In this document: positions 39,495-47,219 of the stretch, piece after piece
How the letters are laid out: the number at the start of each line of letters is the position of its first letter
How positions within the stretch are numbered: position 1 is the stretch's first letter
Source of the DNA: Magnetococcales bacterium
GTDB lineage: Bacteria; Pseudomonadota; Magnetococcia; Magnetococcales; JADFYX01
NCBI GenBank assembly: GCA_002753565.1
Contig: PEAM01000012.1
Coordinates: 1-64,000, forward strand
DNA length: 64,000 bases
Reading direction: 5' to 3'
The notes under the pieces: model-generated
What the model was told of the DNA's origin: nothing
Database searches by the model: none
Seen by the model: the letters and a program-made list of their open reading frames with translations, nothing else
Made by a program: the position numbers and the translations under genes

Positions 39495-39641
39495 CGAATC
39501 TCACCATTAGGCAGGTTATGGAGTGAGAGGACAGGATGCCGAGGTTTTAAAAAAGAATCAAACACTATTCTTGCAAGTCTCCCTTAACGGTGGTGAAAAA
39601 TGCCCCTGCTCTCGGCGGGGAAATTCGGTTATCCTAAGACC

Positions 39642-41018
39642 ATGGTTCAGATATATTTTGATCAAGGCACCCTGAAAATTGAAGGCACCCCAGAGGCTCT
39701 TGCGCCAGTCGCCCTCTACATGCGCTGGGATGAGCGGGCTGAGTGCTATCGGGCAGAAGCCCGTTATTATGGCCCCATTATTTTGGCTCTGCATCGGCTG
39801 AAGACCCCCTTTGATGACCAGGCCAGACAGTTCAAGCCTCAGCAGTTTCACGCCCCCAACGAATTTTCGCCCCGCCCCCATCAGCAGGCCTCCCTGGATG
39901 GCTGGATTCAAGCCCAGAGAAACGGTGTGGTGGTGCTGCCCACCGGCGCCGGCAAAACCCTGGTCGCCCGCATGGCCATGCTTCGAACCCAGCGGGATAC
40001 CCTGATTCTGGTTCCCACCATCAACCTGATGCAGCAGTGGCATGAGCAGCTCAAAGAGGCTTTTGGCGTGGCGGTGGGGCTGCTGGGAGGAGGGGAGCAT
40101 CAACTGGAGCCCATTACCGTCAGCACCTACGATTCGGCCCTCATCCACATGGAGAACATCGGCAATCGGTTTGGTCTGCTGATCTGTGATGAGTGCCACC
40201 ATCTGCCAGCCCCCAGCACCCGGCTGGCAGCGGTGATGAGCATCGCCCCTTTTCGTCTCGGTCTGACTGCCACCCCTGAGCGCACCGATGGTCAGGAGTC
40301 CGATCTCTACGATCTGCTCGGCCCCCTCTGTCATCGGGTGGAGATCAACCAGTTGGAGGGGCGGTTTCTCGCCCCCTATCAGCTGGAACATGTGCCGGTT
40401 ACCCTGGACCCGGATGAGAGAGAAGCCTACGACAACGCCTATGAGCAGTATAAATCGTTTGCTCGCAGCAGTGGCATCAACTTTGGTCGTAAGGAGGGGT
40501 GGTCACAGTTTATCATGCTCTGTGCCCGCTCCAAGGAGGGCCGGGCCGCCTATGCCGCCTATCGGATGCAAAAAAAACTGGCACGGGCCTCTCGGGCTAA
40601 ACTGCGACGGGTGTGGGAGATTCTTCGCCTCCATCGCAAGGAGCGTATTATTCTGTTTACCGATGATAATGCCACCGCCTACGCCATCGGAGAGACCTTT
40701 TTTCTGCCGGTTATTACCCATAAAACCAAGCTGGCTGAACGTAAGCGACTGCTGGATGGATTCCGGGAGGGGAGTCTGCCGTTTTTGGTTAATTCACGGG
40801 TATTGAATGAGGGGGTGGATGTGCCGGATGTTTCGGTGGGGGTAATTGTCTCTGGCAGTGGCTCGGTGCGAGAGCATGTGCAGCGGTTGGGGCGTATTTT
40901 GCGCCCGAGAGAGGGTAAACAGGCGGTTCTCTATGAGCTGGTCTCGGAGGATACCGCCGAGCAGTTTACCTCAGAGCGACGCCGTCAACACACCGCCTAC
41001 CAGCGGGGAGACGGATAG
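39642..41018 (+). CDS. XPB-type SF2 DNA helicase
   Basis: 458 residues from ATG 39642 (ATG 39600 is in frame but less typical). N-terminal damage-recognition-like part (VQIYFDQGTLKIEG), RPHQQASLDGW (Q-like), Walker A VVLPTGAGKTLVAR near residue 97, Walker B LLICDECHHLPA near 180, motif III GLTATPERTDG, and helicase domain 2 with VNSRVLNEGVDVPDVSVGV and QRLGRILRPREGK. This is the layout of archaeal and bacterial XPB. The DUF790 gene follows by 3 bases. Confidence 0.9.
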   Translation: MVQIYFDQGTLKIEGTPEALAPVALYMRWDERAECYRAEARYYGPIILALHRLKTPFDDQARQFKPQQFHAPNEFSPRPHQQASLDGWIQAQRNGVVVLPTGAGKTLVARMAMLRTQRDTLILVPTINLMQQWHEQLKEAFGVAVGLLGGGEHQLEPITVSTYDSALIHMENIGNRFGLLICDECHHLPAPSTRLAAVMSIAPFRLGLTATPERTDGQESDLYDLLGPLCHRVEINQLEGRFLAPYQLEHVPVTLDPDEREAYDNAYEQYKSFARSSGINFGRKEGWSQFIMLCARSKEGRAAYAAYRMQKKLARASRAKLRRVWEILRLHRKERIILFTDDNATAYAIGETFFLPVITHKTKLAERKRLLDGFREGSLPFLVNSRVLNEGVDVPDVSVGVIVSGSGSVREHVQRLGRILRPREGKQAVLYELVSEDTAEQFTSERRRQHTAYQRGDG

Positions 41019-41021
41019 CCC

Positions 41022-42260
41022 ATGTTGACCAAAGATCTTTTGCGCTTTAACCGCAACCGCCAAGCCCGTCTGTTTCCCCGGTTTTTAAATCCCGAAGACC
41101 GCGTTACCCTCAATCTGGTCGAAGAGCTGGCCGGTCTTCTGCTTGCGGGCATCGGTCAGAGCCGGGAAGATCTGGCCGAGTTGGCCCAGCCCATCATCAA
41201 CGGCTATCGCTCTCCCCTGATTGCCAAAGGGGTCAACAAACTGCTCCTGGACCGCTGCCTTTTTCGGGAACCGGATGCCGGGGTAGAGCGTTTTCGAGGG
41301 GAGGTGTTTGCCACAGCCACCCAGCTGTTAACTCAAGACAACCCCGATATGGACAGCCTGACCCACTTCCGGGCGGCGGTTGGTCACGCTTTTGGCAAGG
41401 AGGCGGACAGCTTGGCGACAGAGCTTCATGGTGACCTGCCTATTCGTCAGCCATTGGAAGAGTTCGACCCCCTGCCAGCGGTTCGGTTGATCCATCGCTA
41501 CAATCTGGCTCAGGTTCAGGGGCTGCTGTTTAACGCCACACGGATGACGGTTACCTTTACCGAGGCGGATGTGGGCCGCAGACGGTTTTTTTTCCGCTAT
41601 CTTAAATTTTTCCGCCTGCTGGCTCGGGTCTATAGAGAGGGGCAGAGGAGCTATCGTCTGGAGCTGGATGGGCCGTTGAGTCTGTTTGATCAGACTCGGA
41701 AATATGGTCTGCGCATGGCCAATCTTCTGCCGGTCATCTGCCTGCTCTCCCAGTGGTCTCTCAAGGCCAATGTCAAACCCGAGCAGCGGGCCGGCACGCT
41801 GGAGATGGACCACAACGATGGATTAATCTCCCACTATACCCTGACCACCGCCTATGTCCCCGAGGAGTTCCAGATTTTTGCCAAACAGTTCAAGGATACG
41901 GTAAAGGAGTGGAAGATCCAAAAAAATGCCCCCCTGCTGGACCTCAGCAAGCAGGAGCTGGTCATCCCAGATTTCTCTTTCCGCCATTCATCCGGTCAGG
42001 TTGTCCATCTGGAGCTATTCCATCGGTGGCATAAGGGGGCATTGATTCAGCGCATCAAGCATCTACAGAGCAGCCGTAAACGTATCCCTCTTTTGATTGG
42101 CATCGATCGTCACCTGACCAAAGATCCACCCACCCTCAAACTGTTGGAAAAATCCGCCTGGTTTCAAGAGCACGGCTTTGCCTTCAACGCTTTTCCACCC
42201 GTTAAACGGGTGGTCAAGGCCTTGGCGGGGTTCCTGGATGCACCTGCCAATCCAACCTGA
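41022..42260 (+). CDS. DUF790 / Bax1-like nuclease, partner of XPB
   Basis: 412 residues. Family marks: MLTKDLLRFNRNRQARLFPRFL at the start, RYNLAQVQGLLFNAT near residue 160, the DGPLSLFDQTRKYGLRMANLLP block, and a PD-(D/E)XK-like core with LVIPDFSFRHSSGQVVHLELFHRW near residue 320. In archaea Bax1 binds XPB and cuts DNA bubbles in a repair-like reaction. Here the helicase and nuclease genes nearly touch, so a helicase-nuclease complex is likely. The spacing suggests translational coupling. Confidence 0.88.
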   Translation: MLTKDLLRFNRNRQARLFPRFLNPEDRVTLNLVEELAGLLLAGIGQSREDLAELAQPIINGYRSPLIAKGVNKLLLDRCLFREPDAGVERFRGEVFATATQLLTQDNPDMDSLTHFRAAVGHAFGKEADSLATELHGDLPIRQPLEEFDPLPAVRLIHRYNLAQVQGLLFNATRMTVTFTEADVGRRRFFFRYLKFFRLLARVYREGQRSYRLELDGPLSLFDQTRKYGLRMANLLPVICLLSQWSLKANVKPEQRAGTLEMDHNDGLISHYTLTTAYVPEEFQIFAKQFKDTVKEWKIQKNAPLLDLSKQELVIPDFSFRHSSGQVVHLELFHRWHKGALIQRIKHLQSSRKRIPLLIGIDRHLTKDPPTLKLLEKSAWFQEHGFAFNAFPPVKRVVKALAGFLDAPANPT

Positions 42261-42761
42261 TAGAGGGCCAGCTTGGGATAAAGAGCCCCAGCCAAAACCC
42301 CCACCGCCTTATATGGTATGGGCCAGCAGAATAACAGGGATATAGAGAGATGTTTTAATAAAGTATTGGAAAGTGTATAATGCTGAGTATTGACTGCAGA
42401 AGATATAAAGTAGTGAGTTCGATGGACGAGTAGCAAGTAAGCTGGAGATTACCTGTTTTTCAACATCAGTAGTATAAACCTGTACGATTGGTTGGGCCGA
42501 ACTGGTCTTGGACTAAGAGTGCAAGGTCCATATGGCCGGAACCTAAAAAAGTGAACGGGCTGCGCATATAAGATTTACAGATGTTTTCTATAGTTAATTG
42601 GTACCAGAACTGGACACTATCAGTGAAGGAAAACCGGCTTGATAAGCTGAGATAAAAATTAGCAAGCATTTGTTGTTTAATGGAAAACCCCACTATGGTT
42701 TGGAACAAGTTTCCCTTTTGGTTTTTAACAAGATTGATCCAAAACAGCCTTGAGGCTATCT
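42261..42761. other. Intergenic region at the left edge of the A+T-rich island
   Basis: 500 bases without a convincing gene. A TATAAT box is visible at 42376-42381 with no good -35. Base composition drops to A+T-rich about here and stays so for 4 kb. A minus-strand open frame (42466-42708) is short, has no ribosome binding site and matches nothing I recognise. Confidence 0.4.
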
Positions 42762-44177
42762 GTGAAAAATATTCTTCTTCTTAATCTACCTTCGGAAATC
42801 CCAAATTTTCGAAATTTACACCGGGCTAAGGTTGGTGATCCCAACTATATTCTGCCGACTGCAGATTTGATCTACATCAGTGGGTTTCTTTGGGATGCAG
42901 GATTTCACTTGAAATTTAAAGATTTCCAGCTTAAACAAAAGATGACATTAGAGGCCTATCTAGCCCAATCAACACCTGATATCATTGTTACCACCTACTC
43001 CCCATTTCTCCAAAAAGAAGATCTGTCCCAGCTAGAAAAAATTGCCGCCAACCATCCGGAGATCACCCTTATTCTTTTAGCGAGCCATAAAGATCGGCTA
43101 GATCCAACATTTACCGAACAGCTACTTCGGAAGTACCGTTTTATCACCGGGATGGTTGTTGACTACGCCTTCAATACGCTTGCTTCATTCCTCAAGGGGG
43201 ATCGTTCTGAGGCTTTATATAATGTCATGTACTTGGAAGATGAGCTCTACCGGGGTAATCTTCAAAATAGTCCCAAAGAGTTTAGTCTCCCTATTCCTCG
43301 GCATGAACTCTTCAAGTCAGATCACTATTTTCACTATGACGGTACTGGTGGTCATTTAACTATTGCCATGACCAATTTTGGCTGTAAACAGCCCTGTTCC
43401 TTTTGCTGGGCACCACAACTCTATGCAACAGTATCGGATCGAAGTCCGGAAAATCTGGTTGATGAGATGGAGCATATTGTCCGAAGTGGTTTTGATGAAG
43501 TCTATTTTCATGACTATACCTTTGGCTACCACCGAAAACATCTTTTACGCTTTTGTAAATTAATGGTAGATCGAGGTATAAAACTTCGTTGGTTTTGTTC
43601 GGCTCGTATTGATCTCATGTCTCCCCAGGTGATTAAAGCTATGGCAGAGGCTGGTTGTCGCTGTATTGAATTTGGTATTGAGAGTGGAAATTATGATGTT
43701 CGCAAACTTTATGGAAAAGATTTTACAGACGAGAAAACTAAAACCGTTATAAACCTCTGCCGGGAAAACGGGATTCATACCTCTGCCTATCTTATCCTCG
43801 GACTGCCTGAAGAAAATTTGGAAGATATGGATCGTTCCATACAGTTCGTAGCCAACCTCAAAGTAAACTATATTGCCTTAAATATTCTTTGGGCAGAGGA
43901 GCATACTGACTTGGTGAAAGATGTCCGCCAAGAAGAGGAGCAACCCAAACATGATGTTGCCATGCAGACCATTAATTTTTCTCATCCTCATGTCACCACA
44001 AATGAGGTCATTCAGCTGCGAAAAAAATGGATGTTCAAGATGTACCTGAACCCTCGTTTTATTTTTGAACAGCTACTCAATATTCGATCACTGAAAAAGA
44101 TAAAAGACCTCTTTTTTCTTTTCAATCAGATTGCCTTCTCCAAAGGCAAAAATAGGCCTGATATTCCAATAACATGA
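42762..44177 (+). CDS. Radical SAM protein with B12-binding-like N-terminal domain
   Basis: 471 residues from GTG 42762, which has GAGG 6 bases upstream. The N-terminal half (about 1-140) has the Rossmann-like pattern of B12-binding radical SAM enzymes (ILLLNLP, then TADLIYISGFLWDAGFHLKFKD) but no DxHxxG cobalamin motif. The radical SAM domain carries the cluster motif CKQPCSFC near residue 208, followed by FDEVYFHDYTF, a GIESGN loop and HTSAYLILGLPEENLED. The substrate is unknown. It overlaps the next gene (ATGA) and is A+T-rich unlike most of the window. Confidence 0.87.
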   Translation: MKNILLLNLPSEIPNFRNLHRAKVGDPNYILPTADLIYISGFLWDAGFHLKFKDFQLKQKMTLEAYLAQSTPDIIVTTYSPFLQKEDLSQLEKIAANHPEITLILLASHKDRLDPTFTEQLLRKYRFITGMVVDYAFNTLASFLKGDRSEALYNVMYLEDELYRGNLQNSPKEFSLPIPRHELFKSDHYFHYDGTGGHLTIAMTNFGCKQPCSFCWAPQLYATVSDRSPENLVDEMEHIVRSGFDEVYFHDYTFGYHRKHLLRFCKLMVDRGIKLRWFCSARIDLMSPQVIKAMAEAGCRCIEFGIESGNYDVRKLYGKDFTDEKTKTVINLCRENGIHTSAYLILGLPEENLEDMDRSIQFVANLKVNYIALNILWAEEHTDLVKDVRQEEEQPKHDVAMQTINFSHPHVTTNEVIQLRKKWMFKMYLNPRFIFEQLLNIRSLKKIKDLFFLFNQIAFSKGKNRPDIPIT

Positions 44178-45151
44178 ATATATTTATCACAGGGGCGACA
44201 GGTTTTATTGGGCAGGTTTTTTTAAAAGCTCTACTCCAAAGACTGGGTACTAAAGACAAAATTTATCTATTATCACGAAAGGCAGTTCAACATTCAGATT
44301 CTCGTATAGTCACCTTGCTTGGCTCTTTGAAAACCTTAGCTGACTTTTCCAACACTCTTCTGGAAGCCGATTATGTTTTTCATCTTGCAGCAGAATCTCG
44401 GATGGCCTTTAAAGCTAATGCAGAATATTTTTACCTTCAAAATGAGTATCCTACTCAGCTTATTGTCAACGTCCTGTCTCAGAGTAGCAGACTTAAAAAA
44501 ATAATTTTTCTCAGCTCCATTGCTGCCGTTGACCGGATAGATCAGGATCGTTGCATAGCTCCCCTTACTACTTCCAGCCCTATGGCTCCCCAAACCCTTT
44601 ATGGACAATCCAAACAACGAGCAGAAGATATTATCGTTAAAAGTGGGCAACCGTATGTAATTTTGCGACCCTCCTTAGTCTATGGTTGTCATATGCGGTC
44701 TGATTCTCACCTTAATCGTTTTACCACACTAGTCTATAAAAACTCTCTTATTTCTAGAATCAATTTTTCTGGTCTGGTTGCTCTAATTCATGTAAATGAT
44801 CTTGCCAATGCTCTTGTGAATACAATTTTTTCTCCTTTAGCTCTTAATAAAACCTATTTTGCTGTTACCGAAAATATTTCTCTTAGAGACATTTTTCAGC
44901 TTCTACATCAAAAAATTCACAAGAGGGGGGGCTGGATGATACCCTGGCCCCAGCTTCGTTTTCTTTGGTGTCGAATGCACACTCGCTTTTCACCATTGTT
45001 TTCTATGCTCTTTATCGACTATTACTGGACTAAAGACCCCACTTTTATCAATGAGCTGTTAACAAACAGCACACCCATTTCATTGCAACAGGGTATTGAA
45101 GACGTTATTGAAACCAACGCTCTGTCGGGAAGAAAAGATCGCATAAAATAG
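44174..45151 (+). CDS. NAD-dependent epimerase/dehydratase (extended SDR)
   Basis: 325 residues. NAD-binding TGATGFIGQVFLKALL at the start, YVFHLAAESRM, and the catalytic YGQSK (YxxxK) near residue 155. RPSLVYGCHMRSD is the typical sugar-nucleotide or sterol-type segment. The C-terminal half differs from well-studied sugar epimerases. It is coupled to the radical SAM gene by a 4-base overlap. The pair may modify a sugar or lipid, which is inference from context only. Confidence 0.88.
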   Translation: MNIFITGATGFIGQVFLKALLQRLGTKDKIYLLSRKAVQHSDSRIVTLLGSLKTLADFSNTLLEADYVFHLAAESRMAFKANAEYFYLQNEYPTQLIVNVLSQSSRLKKIIFLSSIAAVDRIDQDRCIAPLTTSSPMAPQTLYGQSKQRAEDIIVKSGQPYVILRPSLVYGCHMRSDSHLNRFTTLVYKNSLISRINFSGLVALIHVNDLANALVNTIFSPLALNKTYFAVTENISLRDIFQLLHQKIHKRGGWMIPWPQLRFLWCRMHTRFSPLFSMLFIDYYWTKDPTFINELLTNSTPISLQQGIEDVIETNALSGRKDRIK

Positions 45152-45209
45152 AAGTTAGAAGAGTATTTCTTCTTTTTTTACTTCGACAATAAATTGGAAT
45201 TTAGACCCA

Positions 45210-47219
45210 ATGACAAAAGAACACCTTACTCTCTCTTTTTTCTTCTCATCTCTCATTCTCTTTTTGTTTTATTATTTCTTTATCATTGGTTATCCTATCA
45301 TCAAGCGTGATGCACCCGTCGAGGTAGATGACTCTTACGGTTATTTATTAAAGTCAAGCAAGATAACCCAGTGTCTTCTCCAGGCTTGCCCAGGGCTAGA
45401 AACATTAAACAGACAGTTCTTCACCCCATCTGAAAGTCCTGAAGTTGCCTTTAATCGAATTCGCCAACATCAGAGAATCACCCATATTTACCACCCATTA
45501 CACTCTTTTTTGGTTTTAATGGTAAAACAGTTTGGCCTTACGTGGGAGCAGGCTGACTATACGGTAAAACTGTTAGGGGCAGCACTATTTGGCTTGGCTG
45601 TTGCTGGTTTCTTATACGTTCATTGGGGAGCATTGGGGGCAGGGATTTCTTTGATAATACTGCCTCTCATAGAGTTTCCTCGACAGGGGATTGTGGCAAT
45701 TATTCCCAGCACTCTTTCGCTTGCCATAGCTTTGGTTGCTTGGATCTTTATTGCGCGTCGCTCACCCAAACGGCACACCATTTTTTTAATCATAGCCTGT
45801 GCTCTCCCATTTATGCACTCAATGGGTAAACCCTATGCTGCGATGACATTGCTCTATTATTGGCTTATGGAAGACCATCCATGGCGAGGAGCTGTGTTCG
45901 TACGATGCTTGATTGCTGGAACAGTATTGGTAGCTTGGAGCTTGATTCCTAGCCTACTCTTTCCACTGGAGTTTTCTCCCGCACCAATCTCGACACCGGA
46001 GTTTGTCCACCAATCTTTCAGTACAGGGGTACAACGCAACTATTACGCTTTGGTTGAGGTGATCCAGAATTGGGTAAGTCAAATAGGATCTCCGTGGCTG
46101 GTCGGTATTGGAATGAGTGTTGGGCTGGGTGTAATCATTTGGGAGAGAAAAAAACAAACTCTACTAATACTTGTTATTTATTCTTTATTTATACTACTTG
46201 GCCTGTTCATCTTTTTACCGTACTTCTCCAGCTATAACCCCGGCCTGATCGCTATCCGGCTCTGGATAGGTTTAAGTCTATTTCTTACCGGTGCGGTAGC
46301 TTATGGTCTGGTTAATATCGCTTTCTGGATGTTGTCTTGGGTATTTACTGTTAGTCATTCTGAAAAAAGAATCCAGCTGAAAACTATTCTTCCACGAATG
46401 CTTTCCCTGATAGCAGTTTTTATTGTACTGGCCTCTCCCACCCATCATTTTCTCCGTCAGGCTTACTGGCAACTGTTGGATATTCCCGACCGGGCCGAAA
46501 AGAAGATCAACCGTCACGACATGATGTTTGATCCGACCCAACCCCAAACCCTGCTGGCTCGGTCCCGGCCCGATGATCTGGTGCTCTATTATGGGGAGAA
46601 GGCGCTCTACTATTTTTTGCTCAACGGTACCCTCTCCCGAAAGGCGATCTTTCCCACCGTAGGTAAAACCCTGCAAGAGACCGGCTATGGTTGGAACGAC
46701 CCCCACCTTAGGTTTATGGTCAGCGAACATGTGGTAGCCAATGGACGGGTGCGCATCTACCCTAAACACCCTGTGGTGATTACCCTCTCTCAACCCATCG
46801 CCAACCAAACCCTCTGGTTGCAACTGGATAACAGCAAAGGGGGGGCGCAAACCCTGCAACTGGAGGGTCGAACCCAGAAAGAGGAGAGGGTGGGGCTTGC
46901 CCGCCGCCTGCCCATCGCTTCAGGTTGGTCGGGGTGGCTCTCCGTCAACCTGTCGGATACGCTGCCCCTCTCCCATCTCACCCTGAAACTTCCCGATAAA
47001 CACAGTCGTGTTAAGTTGAGCGGCATACGGCTCGATCCCAACAGCCCACTGAACTGGAGCTGGAACAGGGGGGTACAGCTGCAAACGGTCTCCATCAAAA
47101 AAGGGATTGTCCACAACAGAACCATCGACTTCAACAGCCAGGCATTGATCCCCACCTCCGACCGACAGGTCAACCTCTTGGCAGACAAAGGGGGCACGAT
47201 TCTGGCGGAACTTTTGTAG
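45210..47219 (+). CDS. Polytopic membrane protein, GT-C glycosyltransferase-like
   Basis: 669 residues. A first membrane segment (LSFFFSSLILFLFYYFFIIGYP) precedes an acidic loop (RDAPVEVDDSYGY), as in GT-C glycosyltransferases where the loop carries the catalytic acid. About ten further membrane segments run to residue 430, then a 240-residue extracytoplasmic domain of beta-strand character. It is not a family I can name. The first about 1230 bases are A+T-rich and the last about 770 are G+C-rich like the rest of the window, with the change near 46440. It follows the epimerase by 58 bases. Confidence 0.65.
   Translation: MTKEHLTLSFFFSSLILFLFYYFFIIGYPIIKRDAPVEVDDSYGYLLKSSKITQCLLQACPGLETLNRQFFTPSESPEVAFNRIRQHQRITHIYHPLHSFLVLMVKQFGLTWEQADYTVKLLGAALFGLAVAGFLYVHWGALGAGISLIILPLIEFPRQGIVAIIPSTLSLAIALVAWIFIARRSPKRHTIFLIIACALPFMHSMGKPYAAMTLLYYWLMEDHPWRGAVFVRCLIAGTVLVAWSLIPSLLFPLEFSPAPISTPEFVHQSFSTGVQRNYYALVEVIQNWVSQIGSPWLVGIGMSVGLGVIIWERKKQTLLILVIYSLFILLGLFIFLPYFSSYNPGLIAIRLWIGLSLFLTGAVAYGLVNIAFWMLSWVFTVSHSEKRIQLKTILPRMLSLIAVFIVLASPTHHFLRQAYWQLLDIPDRAEKKINRHDMMFDPTQPQTLLARSRPDDLVLYYGEKALYYFLLNGTLSRKAIFPTVGKTLQETGYGWNDPHLRFMVSEHVVANGRVRIYPKHPVVITLSQPIANQTLWLQLDNSKGGAQTLQLEGRTQKEERVGLARRLPIASGWSGWLSVNLSDTLPLSHLTLKLPDKHSRVKLSGIRLDPNSPLNWSWNRGVQLQTVSIKKGIVHNRTIDFNSQALIPTSDRQVNLLADKGGTILAELL

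Follow-up and report, generated by a model that had tools for sequence, protein, structure and literature searches.

In archaea, the helicase XPB and the nuclease Bax1 form a heterodimer that cuts bubble DNA (PMC7293015), with the thumb (ThM) of the helicase contacting Bax1 and wedging the DNA (PMC7293015, PMC7672443). The two genes lie close together in archaeal genomes, and structural work argues for a repair role from biochemistry (PMC7293015). We describe a bacterial pair of the same organization, in which an XPB gene is directly followed by a Bax1 (DUF790) gene in a stretch of 64,000 nucleotides from a Magnetococcales bacterium (positions 1 to 64,000 of contig PEAM01000012.1, assembly GCA_002753565.1), hereafter referred to as the window.

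The pair is a bacterial member of the known archaeal-type XPB-Bax1 family, whose association with helicase genes was already published by Kosinski et al. (2005). At that time, DUF790 was found almost only in Archaea and Cyanobacteria, usually beside SSL2-type helicases, and a role in repair or recombination was suggested, with selfish behaviour not excluded (PMC1189080). A 2012 paper placed prokaryotic XPB in few if any proteobacteria and described an XPB-Bax1 complex as not yet identified in bacteria (PMC3353954). Our search of the open-licence literature found no paper on the bacterial XPB-Bax1 pairs reported in this study.

Results

Identity and predicted structure of the two proteins

Both window proteins share the domain architecture of archaeal XPB(II)-Bax1, as resolved for Archaeoglobus fulgidus (6p66) and Sulfurisphaera tokodaii (6p4f/6p4o/6p4w). 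The helicase gives Pfam matches to XPB_DRD (E 1.7e-14), ResIII (1.2e-27) and ERCC3_RAD25_C (1.9e-17), and its closest solved relatives by sequence are the XPB proteins of Archaeoglobus (E 4e-106) and Sulfurisphaera (E 3e-92). AlphaFold2 models of both proteins were built as single chains from alignments of the window proteins and their relatives. The XPB model (m43025e61af83; mean predicted local distance difference test score, pLDDT, 88.8) has as its best PDB match 6p4f_C, the XPB of an XPB-Bax1-forked DNA crystal (Z 37.8, root-mean-square deviation 2.6, 432 residues aligned). In an alignment of 23 sequences (A4; the window and 22 of 60 listed loci), the ATPase motifs are intact, including the Walker A and DECH motifs and the invariant residues R418 and R421. 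The thumb has a length of 64 residues in every sequence, and its F273, present in 22 of the 23, is by alignment the putative wedge residue. Unlike in archaeal XPB, the RED motif reads R-T-D; its arginine is found in 18/23 sequences and D216 in 20/23, while the middle position varies among relatives.

The window XPB scores 227.8 bits on the NCBIfam model NF045503 ('DNA repair helicase XPB'), below the curated cut-off of 610. This model appears to represent the Mycobacterium tuberculosis type of XPB, which shares the superfamily 2 helicase core with the window protein and which, unlike it, is described in PMC3353954 as thumbless and as without an identified Bax1 partner.

The nuclease matches DUF790/PF05626 with an E value of 1.7e-71 and 241.5 bits against a cut-off of 28.8, and its best solved relative by sequence is Archaeoglobus Bax1 (E 2e-18). 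The five best PDB matches of its model (ma863d5100144, mean pLDDT 93.0) are all Bax1 chains, from Archaeoglobus, Pyrococcus and Sulfurisphaera, aligned over nearly the full length with Z values of 20.8-24.2, followed by the next match at Z 7.2. The Pfam score and the structure matches agree on an N-terminal domain, a Cas2-like domain (CRD) and a nuclease domain; unlike Archaeoglobus fulgidus Bax1 (AfBax1, 468 amino acids), the window protein (412 amino acids) has no long C-terminal domain. It falls below the curated cut-off of 500 on the NCBIfam endonuclease Bax1 models NF053694 and NF053695 (90.8 and 81.1 bits), which, judging from their names (ARCFU, SULTO), seem to be narrow archaeal models.

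Like archaeal XPB-Bax1, the window pair combines the thumb, the catalytic D and E of Bax1 and a full-length predicted fold. Conservation in Bax1 was read from an alignment of 54 sequences (A3; the window and 53 of the 80 named loci introduced below). The acidic residue E282 is likely the equivalent of AfBax1 E275, which pairwise alignments put one or two residues off. D317 occupies the position of AfBax1 D305; incision is impaired by D305A in AfBax1 and by D301A in SsBax1 (PMC7293015). R344 is invariant in all 54 sequences and could be the migrated basic residue described for DUF790 (PMC1913061). A first-pass annotation, made from the letters of the window, had likened the two genes to the archaeal pair; this comparison is supported, as the window proteins have the domains through which XPB and Bax1 of archaea contact one another and the forked DNA.

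Distribution of the gene pair

The class Magnetococcia consists of one order, and its named relatives are 'Magnetococcales bacterium' records. DUF790/Bax1 was detected in 42 of its 48 genomes, including 26 of the 27 of good quality, and an XPB ortholog in 44 of 48; 45 genomes match at the threshold, and one (G047) was not counted because its match is only 36% and partial. Judged by contig positions, with checks of individual loci, 32 of the 41 genomes with both genes have them adjacent, 7 apart, and 2 are undecided at contig ends (G008, G013), while Bax1 without an XPB ortholog occurs in a single one of the 42 carriers (G034, 57% complete). XPB-Bax1 is a standard, inherited, class-wide gene pair of Magnetococcia. 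In the wider sample of 398 Pseudomonadota genomes, all 42 with DUF790 belong to Magnetococcia, and the gene was found in 0/350 of those sampled outside the class.

A contig scan with the Bax1 alignment yielded 175 confirmed relatives in named genomes. The best 80 of these 175 (the named loci) come from Magnetococcales, from Lentisphaerota (Victivallis and its kin), from Myxococcota (Myxococcus, Corallococcus, Nannocystis and Archangium), and from a few records with other or vague titles. Counting gene presence only, DUF790 occurs in 81/195 genomes of the phylum of Myxococcus xanthus (Myxococcota), a species that carries the pair itself (L127), and in 100/387 genomes of the phylum sample around Victivallis vadensis. 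DUF790 was also found in 40 plasmid records, from Deinococcus (11) and haloarchaea. Phage records gave no match, 22 pattern hits in viral contigs included no confirmed relative, and in a library of predicted viral structures nothing matched at E<=0.001 (the best hit had E 8.7e-3 and TM-score 0.18).

The first-pass annotation had called a bacterial pair in a proteobacterial-looking genome unusual. This is not borne out, either within the class or among bacteria at large, with Bax1 being common in other phyla, although the sampled Pseudomonadota outside Magnetococcia lack it. Since it is class-wide in Magnetococcia and found in several other bacterial groups, the window pair is an ordinary one.

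The pairing itself is widespread in relatives. XPB lies directly upstream of Bax1 on the same strand in 69/80 named loci, two of them with truncated XPB copies, and within 100 bases in 62 of the 80; the remaining 11 lack an upstream XPB, and 4 of these have less than 3 kb of upstream DNA. A helicase gene also directly precedes Bax1 in 11/11 Deinococcus plasmid loci and in 3/3 of the haloarchaeal plasmid loci opened. The Deinococcus pairs resemble the window pair in adjacency and order (identity in L061: XPB 47%, Bax1 29%), and differ from it in their plasmid location with varying neighbours and in forming a clade of their own in both trees. XPB is the only neighbour common to nearly all loci of the three main groups, and because the adjacency recurs in Magnetococcia, Lentisphaerota, Myxococcota, Deinococcus and haloarchaea, it is not due to chance. 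Some of the neighbour clusters are artefacts, as the script calls of open reading frames (ORFs) include antisense ORFs; in L067 and L068, these hid a real gene that was subsequently recovered.

Phylogeny of XPB and Bax1

The first-pass annotation had named differing phylogenies and a lack of the pairing in relatives as grounds for refutation. Neither was found, since the two gene trees agree at group level and the pairing is widespread. Maximum-likelihood trees of Bax1 and XPB were calculated from 62 paired sequences each, comprising the window, 22 other Magnetococcia pairs (16 named loci and 6 others, of which three are unlinked: G022, G023, G024), 14 Lentisphaerota, 14 Myxococcota-like loci, 8 of the 11 Deinococcus loci and 3 of the 29 non-Deinococcus plasmid records. 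Among the Myxococcota-like loci are L116, whose record title is Comamonas, L129 (Deltaproteobacteria by title) and L130 (uncultured proteobacterium by title). Named loci that lack XPB (11) or have a truncated copy of it (L100 and L134) were left out.

In both trees the groups follow the same order: haloarchaea as the outgroup, Deinococcus, the lone L130, Myxococcota, and Lentisphaerota together with Magnetococcia. The last grouping is strongly supported for XPB (99/97) and weakly for Bax1 (70/79), and Magnetococcia form a single group with 100/99 for XPB and only 65/74 for Bax1, with a branching order inside the class that is not identical between the two. In each tree, the three unlinked pairs cluster as a single clade within Magnetococcia. 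Path lengths of the two trees correlate with r 0.92 overall and 0.87-0.99 within groups, and in each group 0/2000 permutations reached so high a value. Based on the agreement at group level and the correlated path lengths, the two genes therefore look as if they have been passed on together, by inheritance and sometimes by transfer.

A direct haloarchaeal origin was rejected, as a clade of Magnetococcia and haloarchaea in the Bax1 tree has a p-AU (approximately unbiased) value of 5e-64. Since archaea were represented by three haloarchaeal plasmid loci only, the origin may still be an older archaeal one, and the trees give neither date nor polarity for a transfer to bacteria. Both trees place one record, L116 (BNCN01000001.1, titled Comamonas sp. 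KCTC 72670, genome 9.0 Mb), beside Myxococcus xanthus, and the record title is probably wrong.

Gene neighbourhood of the pair

The features of the two genes are compiled in Table 1. The first-pass annotation had reported an XPB helicase 3 bases from a DUF790 Bax1-like nuclease, and the Pfam matches, PDB matches and coordinates bear this out: the genes are co-directional, with the XPB stop codon at 41016-41018 and the Bax1 ATG 3 bases beyond it. The XPB ORF extends 14 codons farther 5', to 39600; the ATG at 39642 is the better start because the proteins of four congeners align from it.

Table 1. Positions of the XPB and Bax1 genes and of their domains and motifs in the window.
Feature	Position	Strand	Evidence
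XPB-type superfamily 2 helicase gene, 458 amino acids, archaeal short form with damage recognition domain (DRD) and thumb (ThM)	39642..41018	+	
Damage recognition domain PF18458, XPB residues 5-61	39654..39824	+	Above cut-off
Walker A PTGAGKT, XPB residues 100-106	39939..39959	+	G102, G104, K105 invariant in 23/23 sequences
DECH box, XPB residues 183-186	40188..40199	+	D183, E184, H186 invariant in 23/23 sequences
RED-like motif R-T-D, XPB residues 214-216	40281..40289	+	Aligned to Sulfurisphaera XPB R205-D206-D207
Thumb (ThM), XPB residues ~256-319	40407..40598	+	Gap-free alignment to AfXPB and StXPB
Bax1 (DUF790) structure-specific nuclease gene, 412 amino acids	41022..42260	+	PF05626, PDB sequence and fold matches
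Central ferredoxin-like (Cas2-like) domain, Bax1 residues ~172-264	41535..41813	+	Model and matches; named in PMC7293015
E282, motif I acidic residue of Bax1	41865..41867	+	E in 50/54 sequences, A in 4
D317 of the P-D motif of Bax1 (AfBax1 D305)	41970..41972	+	D in 53/54 sequences
E331 of Bax1 (AfBax1 E318)	42012..42014	+	E in 54/54 sequences

On one flank, the pair is accompanied by genes for a histidine kinase, an Hpt protein, an exonuclease-domain protein, an NMT1-like protein and an HD-domain protein, and on the other by genes for a radical SAM protein, an epimerase, a protein without Pfam match and a GGDEF protein. No known defence or mobile gene, including transposases and integrases, was found beside the pair in the window. 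The upstream HD and NMT1-like genes are common to 4/4 congener loci (65-67% and 51-58% identity). All five genomes of the genus retain the sequence AGAATCAAACAC upstream of XPB (39554-39565 in the window). Inspection of the upstream regions by eye, without a formal test, revealed no obvious LexA-like palindrome that was conserved, and a verified LexA box for Magnetococcia is not known to us. Scanning for promoters gave a chance-level result (2 found, 2.0 in shuffles), and the terminator scan came out near chance (6 found, 3.9 in shuffles, standard deviation 1.8).

Just downstream of the pair, the guanine plus cytosine (G+C) content falls to 0.40-0.43 at 42001-46000, compared with 0.57 over 40001-42000. 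This stretch covers the radical SAM gene, the epimerase gene and the gene of the large protein without Pfam match, and is possibly acquired DNA. In five other Magnetococcales loci (L066, L072, L073, L082, L085), a VanZ-like gene lies upstream of XPB; both copies scanned (L066, L073) match PF04892 and overlap XPB by 4 bases.

In one genus (g13), one internal TGA or TAG was reported in the aligned XPB of five genomes. This is compatible with a natural stop inside the aligned end, and in the four g13 loci read, XPB terminates at the stop codon of its ORF, close to query residue 455.

The genome of the window encodes UvrA, UvrC and Mfd, the components searched for. UvrC is present in 43/48 Magnetococcia genomes, this one included (42 above the cut-off), as well as in 5/5 other Bax1-carrier genomes tested.

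Discussion

Taken together, XPB and Bax1 probably act as one helicase-nuclease machine for chromosome maintenance, adding to UvrABC and Mfd and not replacing them. We infer complex formation, the polarity of incision and a repair role by analogy with the archaeal pair. XPB would bind double-stranded DNA ahead of a bubble or fork and translocate with ATP, and its thumb, used as a wedge, would split the strands and widen the opening. Bax1, docked on the thumb and the second motor domain of XPB, would use its C-terminal PD-(D/E)XK-like site (E282, D317, E331) to cut one of the strands close to the junction, with cutting presumably restrained during bubble extension, as archaeal evidence suggests (PMC7293015, PMC7672443). 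Substrates in the bacterium may include bubbles at bulky lesions, at stalled forks or at stalled transcription. Unlike the archaeal systems, the window pair resides in a bacterium that also possesses UvrA, UvrC and Mfd. By analogy, XPB-Bax1 would open and incise damaged DNA as UvrABC and Mfd do; the Bax1 nuclease is, however, unrelated to UvrABC, and the genome of the window has separate genes for UvrA, UvrC and Mfd. Because this genome and other carriers keep Uvr components, the pair is best regarded as an addition to bacterial excision repair.

Several observations weigh against such a machine. No phenotype was observed for deletions of xpb2 and bax1 in Sulfolobus islandicus, and the sensitivity of a Thermococcus xpb mutant was marginal at most (PMC4471258); given the Sulfolobus deletions, repair cannot be regarded as an established role even for the archaeal pair. 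For a bacterial XPB-Bax1 pair, we found neither biochemistry nor genetics in the open-licence literature. The proposed second, N-terminal nuclease site of AfBax1 (D133/E135) is half kept in the window Bax1, where D138 is present in 54/54 sequences and E135 is replaced by P140 (P in 45/54); such a site, of AfBax1/TaBax1-like type, has been proposed for some Bax1 proteins and was not taken here as a defining trait of the family. XPB occurs without a detected Bax1 in three Magnetococcia genomes (G016, G019, G025). An operon with repair genes was considered and rejected, as a repair gene stands directly upstream in only 1/11 Deinococcus plasmid loci; in this locus (L147, Deinococcus gobiensis plasmid P1, 1-3637), a gene of the spore photoproduct lyase family ends 54 bases before the pair, which is suggestive of a link to ultraviolet repair. 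Lastly, the two genes lie apart in 7/41 Magnetococcia genomes (G017, G020-G024, G031), and in five of these seven, Bax1 sits behind a poly(A)-polymerase/CCA-adding-like gene.

The latter arrangement could mean that XPB and Bax1 are separate enzymes, with Bax1 serving different partners (in RNA or tRNA repair, for instance) and its adjacency to XPB being historical. In genus g13, the poly(A)-polymerase/CCA-adding-like gene is directly upstream of Bax1 in 5/5 loci (L067, L068, L069, L084, L086), with XPB elsewhere. The three proteins scanned carry PolyA_pol, PolyA_pol_RNAbd and HD domains, their ORFs overlap Bax1 by 7 bases, and RtcB follows farther upstream in the four loci that reach far enough (L067-L069 and L086). 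In L083, from another Magnetococcales family, a divergent RtcB gene adjoins Bax1. We nevertheless consider separate functions quite improbable, as the XPB-Bax1 adjacency is kept in four bacterial phyla and in haloarchaea, the unlinked Bax1 copies retain D138, Y160 and N161 (54/54 sequences, seven unlinked ones among them), and both trees place the three unlinked pairs that were included within Magnetococcia. An antiphage or anti-plasmid defence pair, in which XPB would open foreign DNA and Bax1 degrade it, is also unlikely, even though helicase-nuclease pairs are a common defence design. The helicase region of XPB does resemble the PADLOC PbeA helicases (best E 1e-54), and the pair is plasmid-borne in 11 Deinococcus records, in one case about 1 kb from restriction-modification genes; at E 0.01, however, Bax1 has no match to any PADLOC family. 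Whereas defence systems usually have a patchy distribution, this pair is class-wide in Magnetococcia with group-congruent trees and keeps its local order in the genus, including the two upstream genes common to the congener loci. Phage records, viral contigs and the predicted viral structures lend no support to defence either, though a defence system of an undescribed kind is conceivable. A selfish or mobile module, the possibility left by PMC1189080, appears very improbable in view of the class-wide pattern within Magnetococcia, the lack of a confirmed relative in viral contigs or phage records and the lack of transposase and integrase genes next to the window pair; the plasmid locations in Deinococcus and haloarchaea and the patchy distribution among phyla are what speak for it.

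The first-pass annotation had left the choice between repair and defence. Of these two unproven roles, chromosome maintenance is favoured, because neither a phage or viral copy in the collections searched nor a defence or mobile gene next to the window pair was found.

Beyond chromosome maintenance as such, we tentatively entertain the possibility that bacteria from several phyla possess, in addition to UvrABC, a second incision pathway that is TFIIH/XPG-like. XPB-Bax1 would then take bubbles that UvrABC handles poorly, such as stalled transcription bubbles, R-loops or crosslinks, and the bacterial branch, having lost the archaeal N-terminal site, would use a single nuclease site.

The bacterial pairs open the unsettled cellular role of XPB-Bax1 to study with and without uvrA. 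The co-inherited pair in Magnetococcia, Myxococcus xanthus and Deinococcus points to bacteria that are suited to testing this role.

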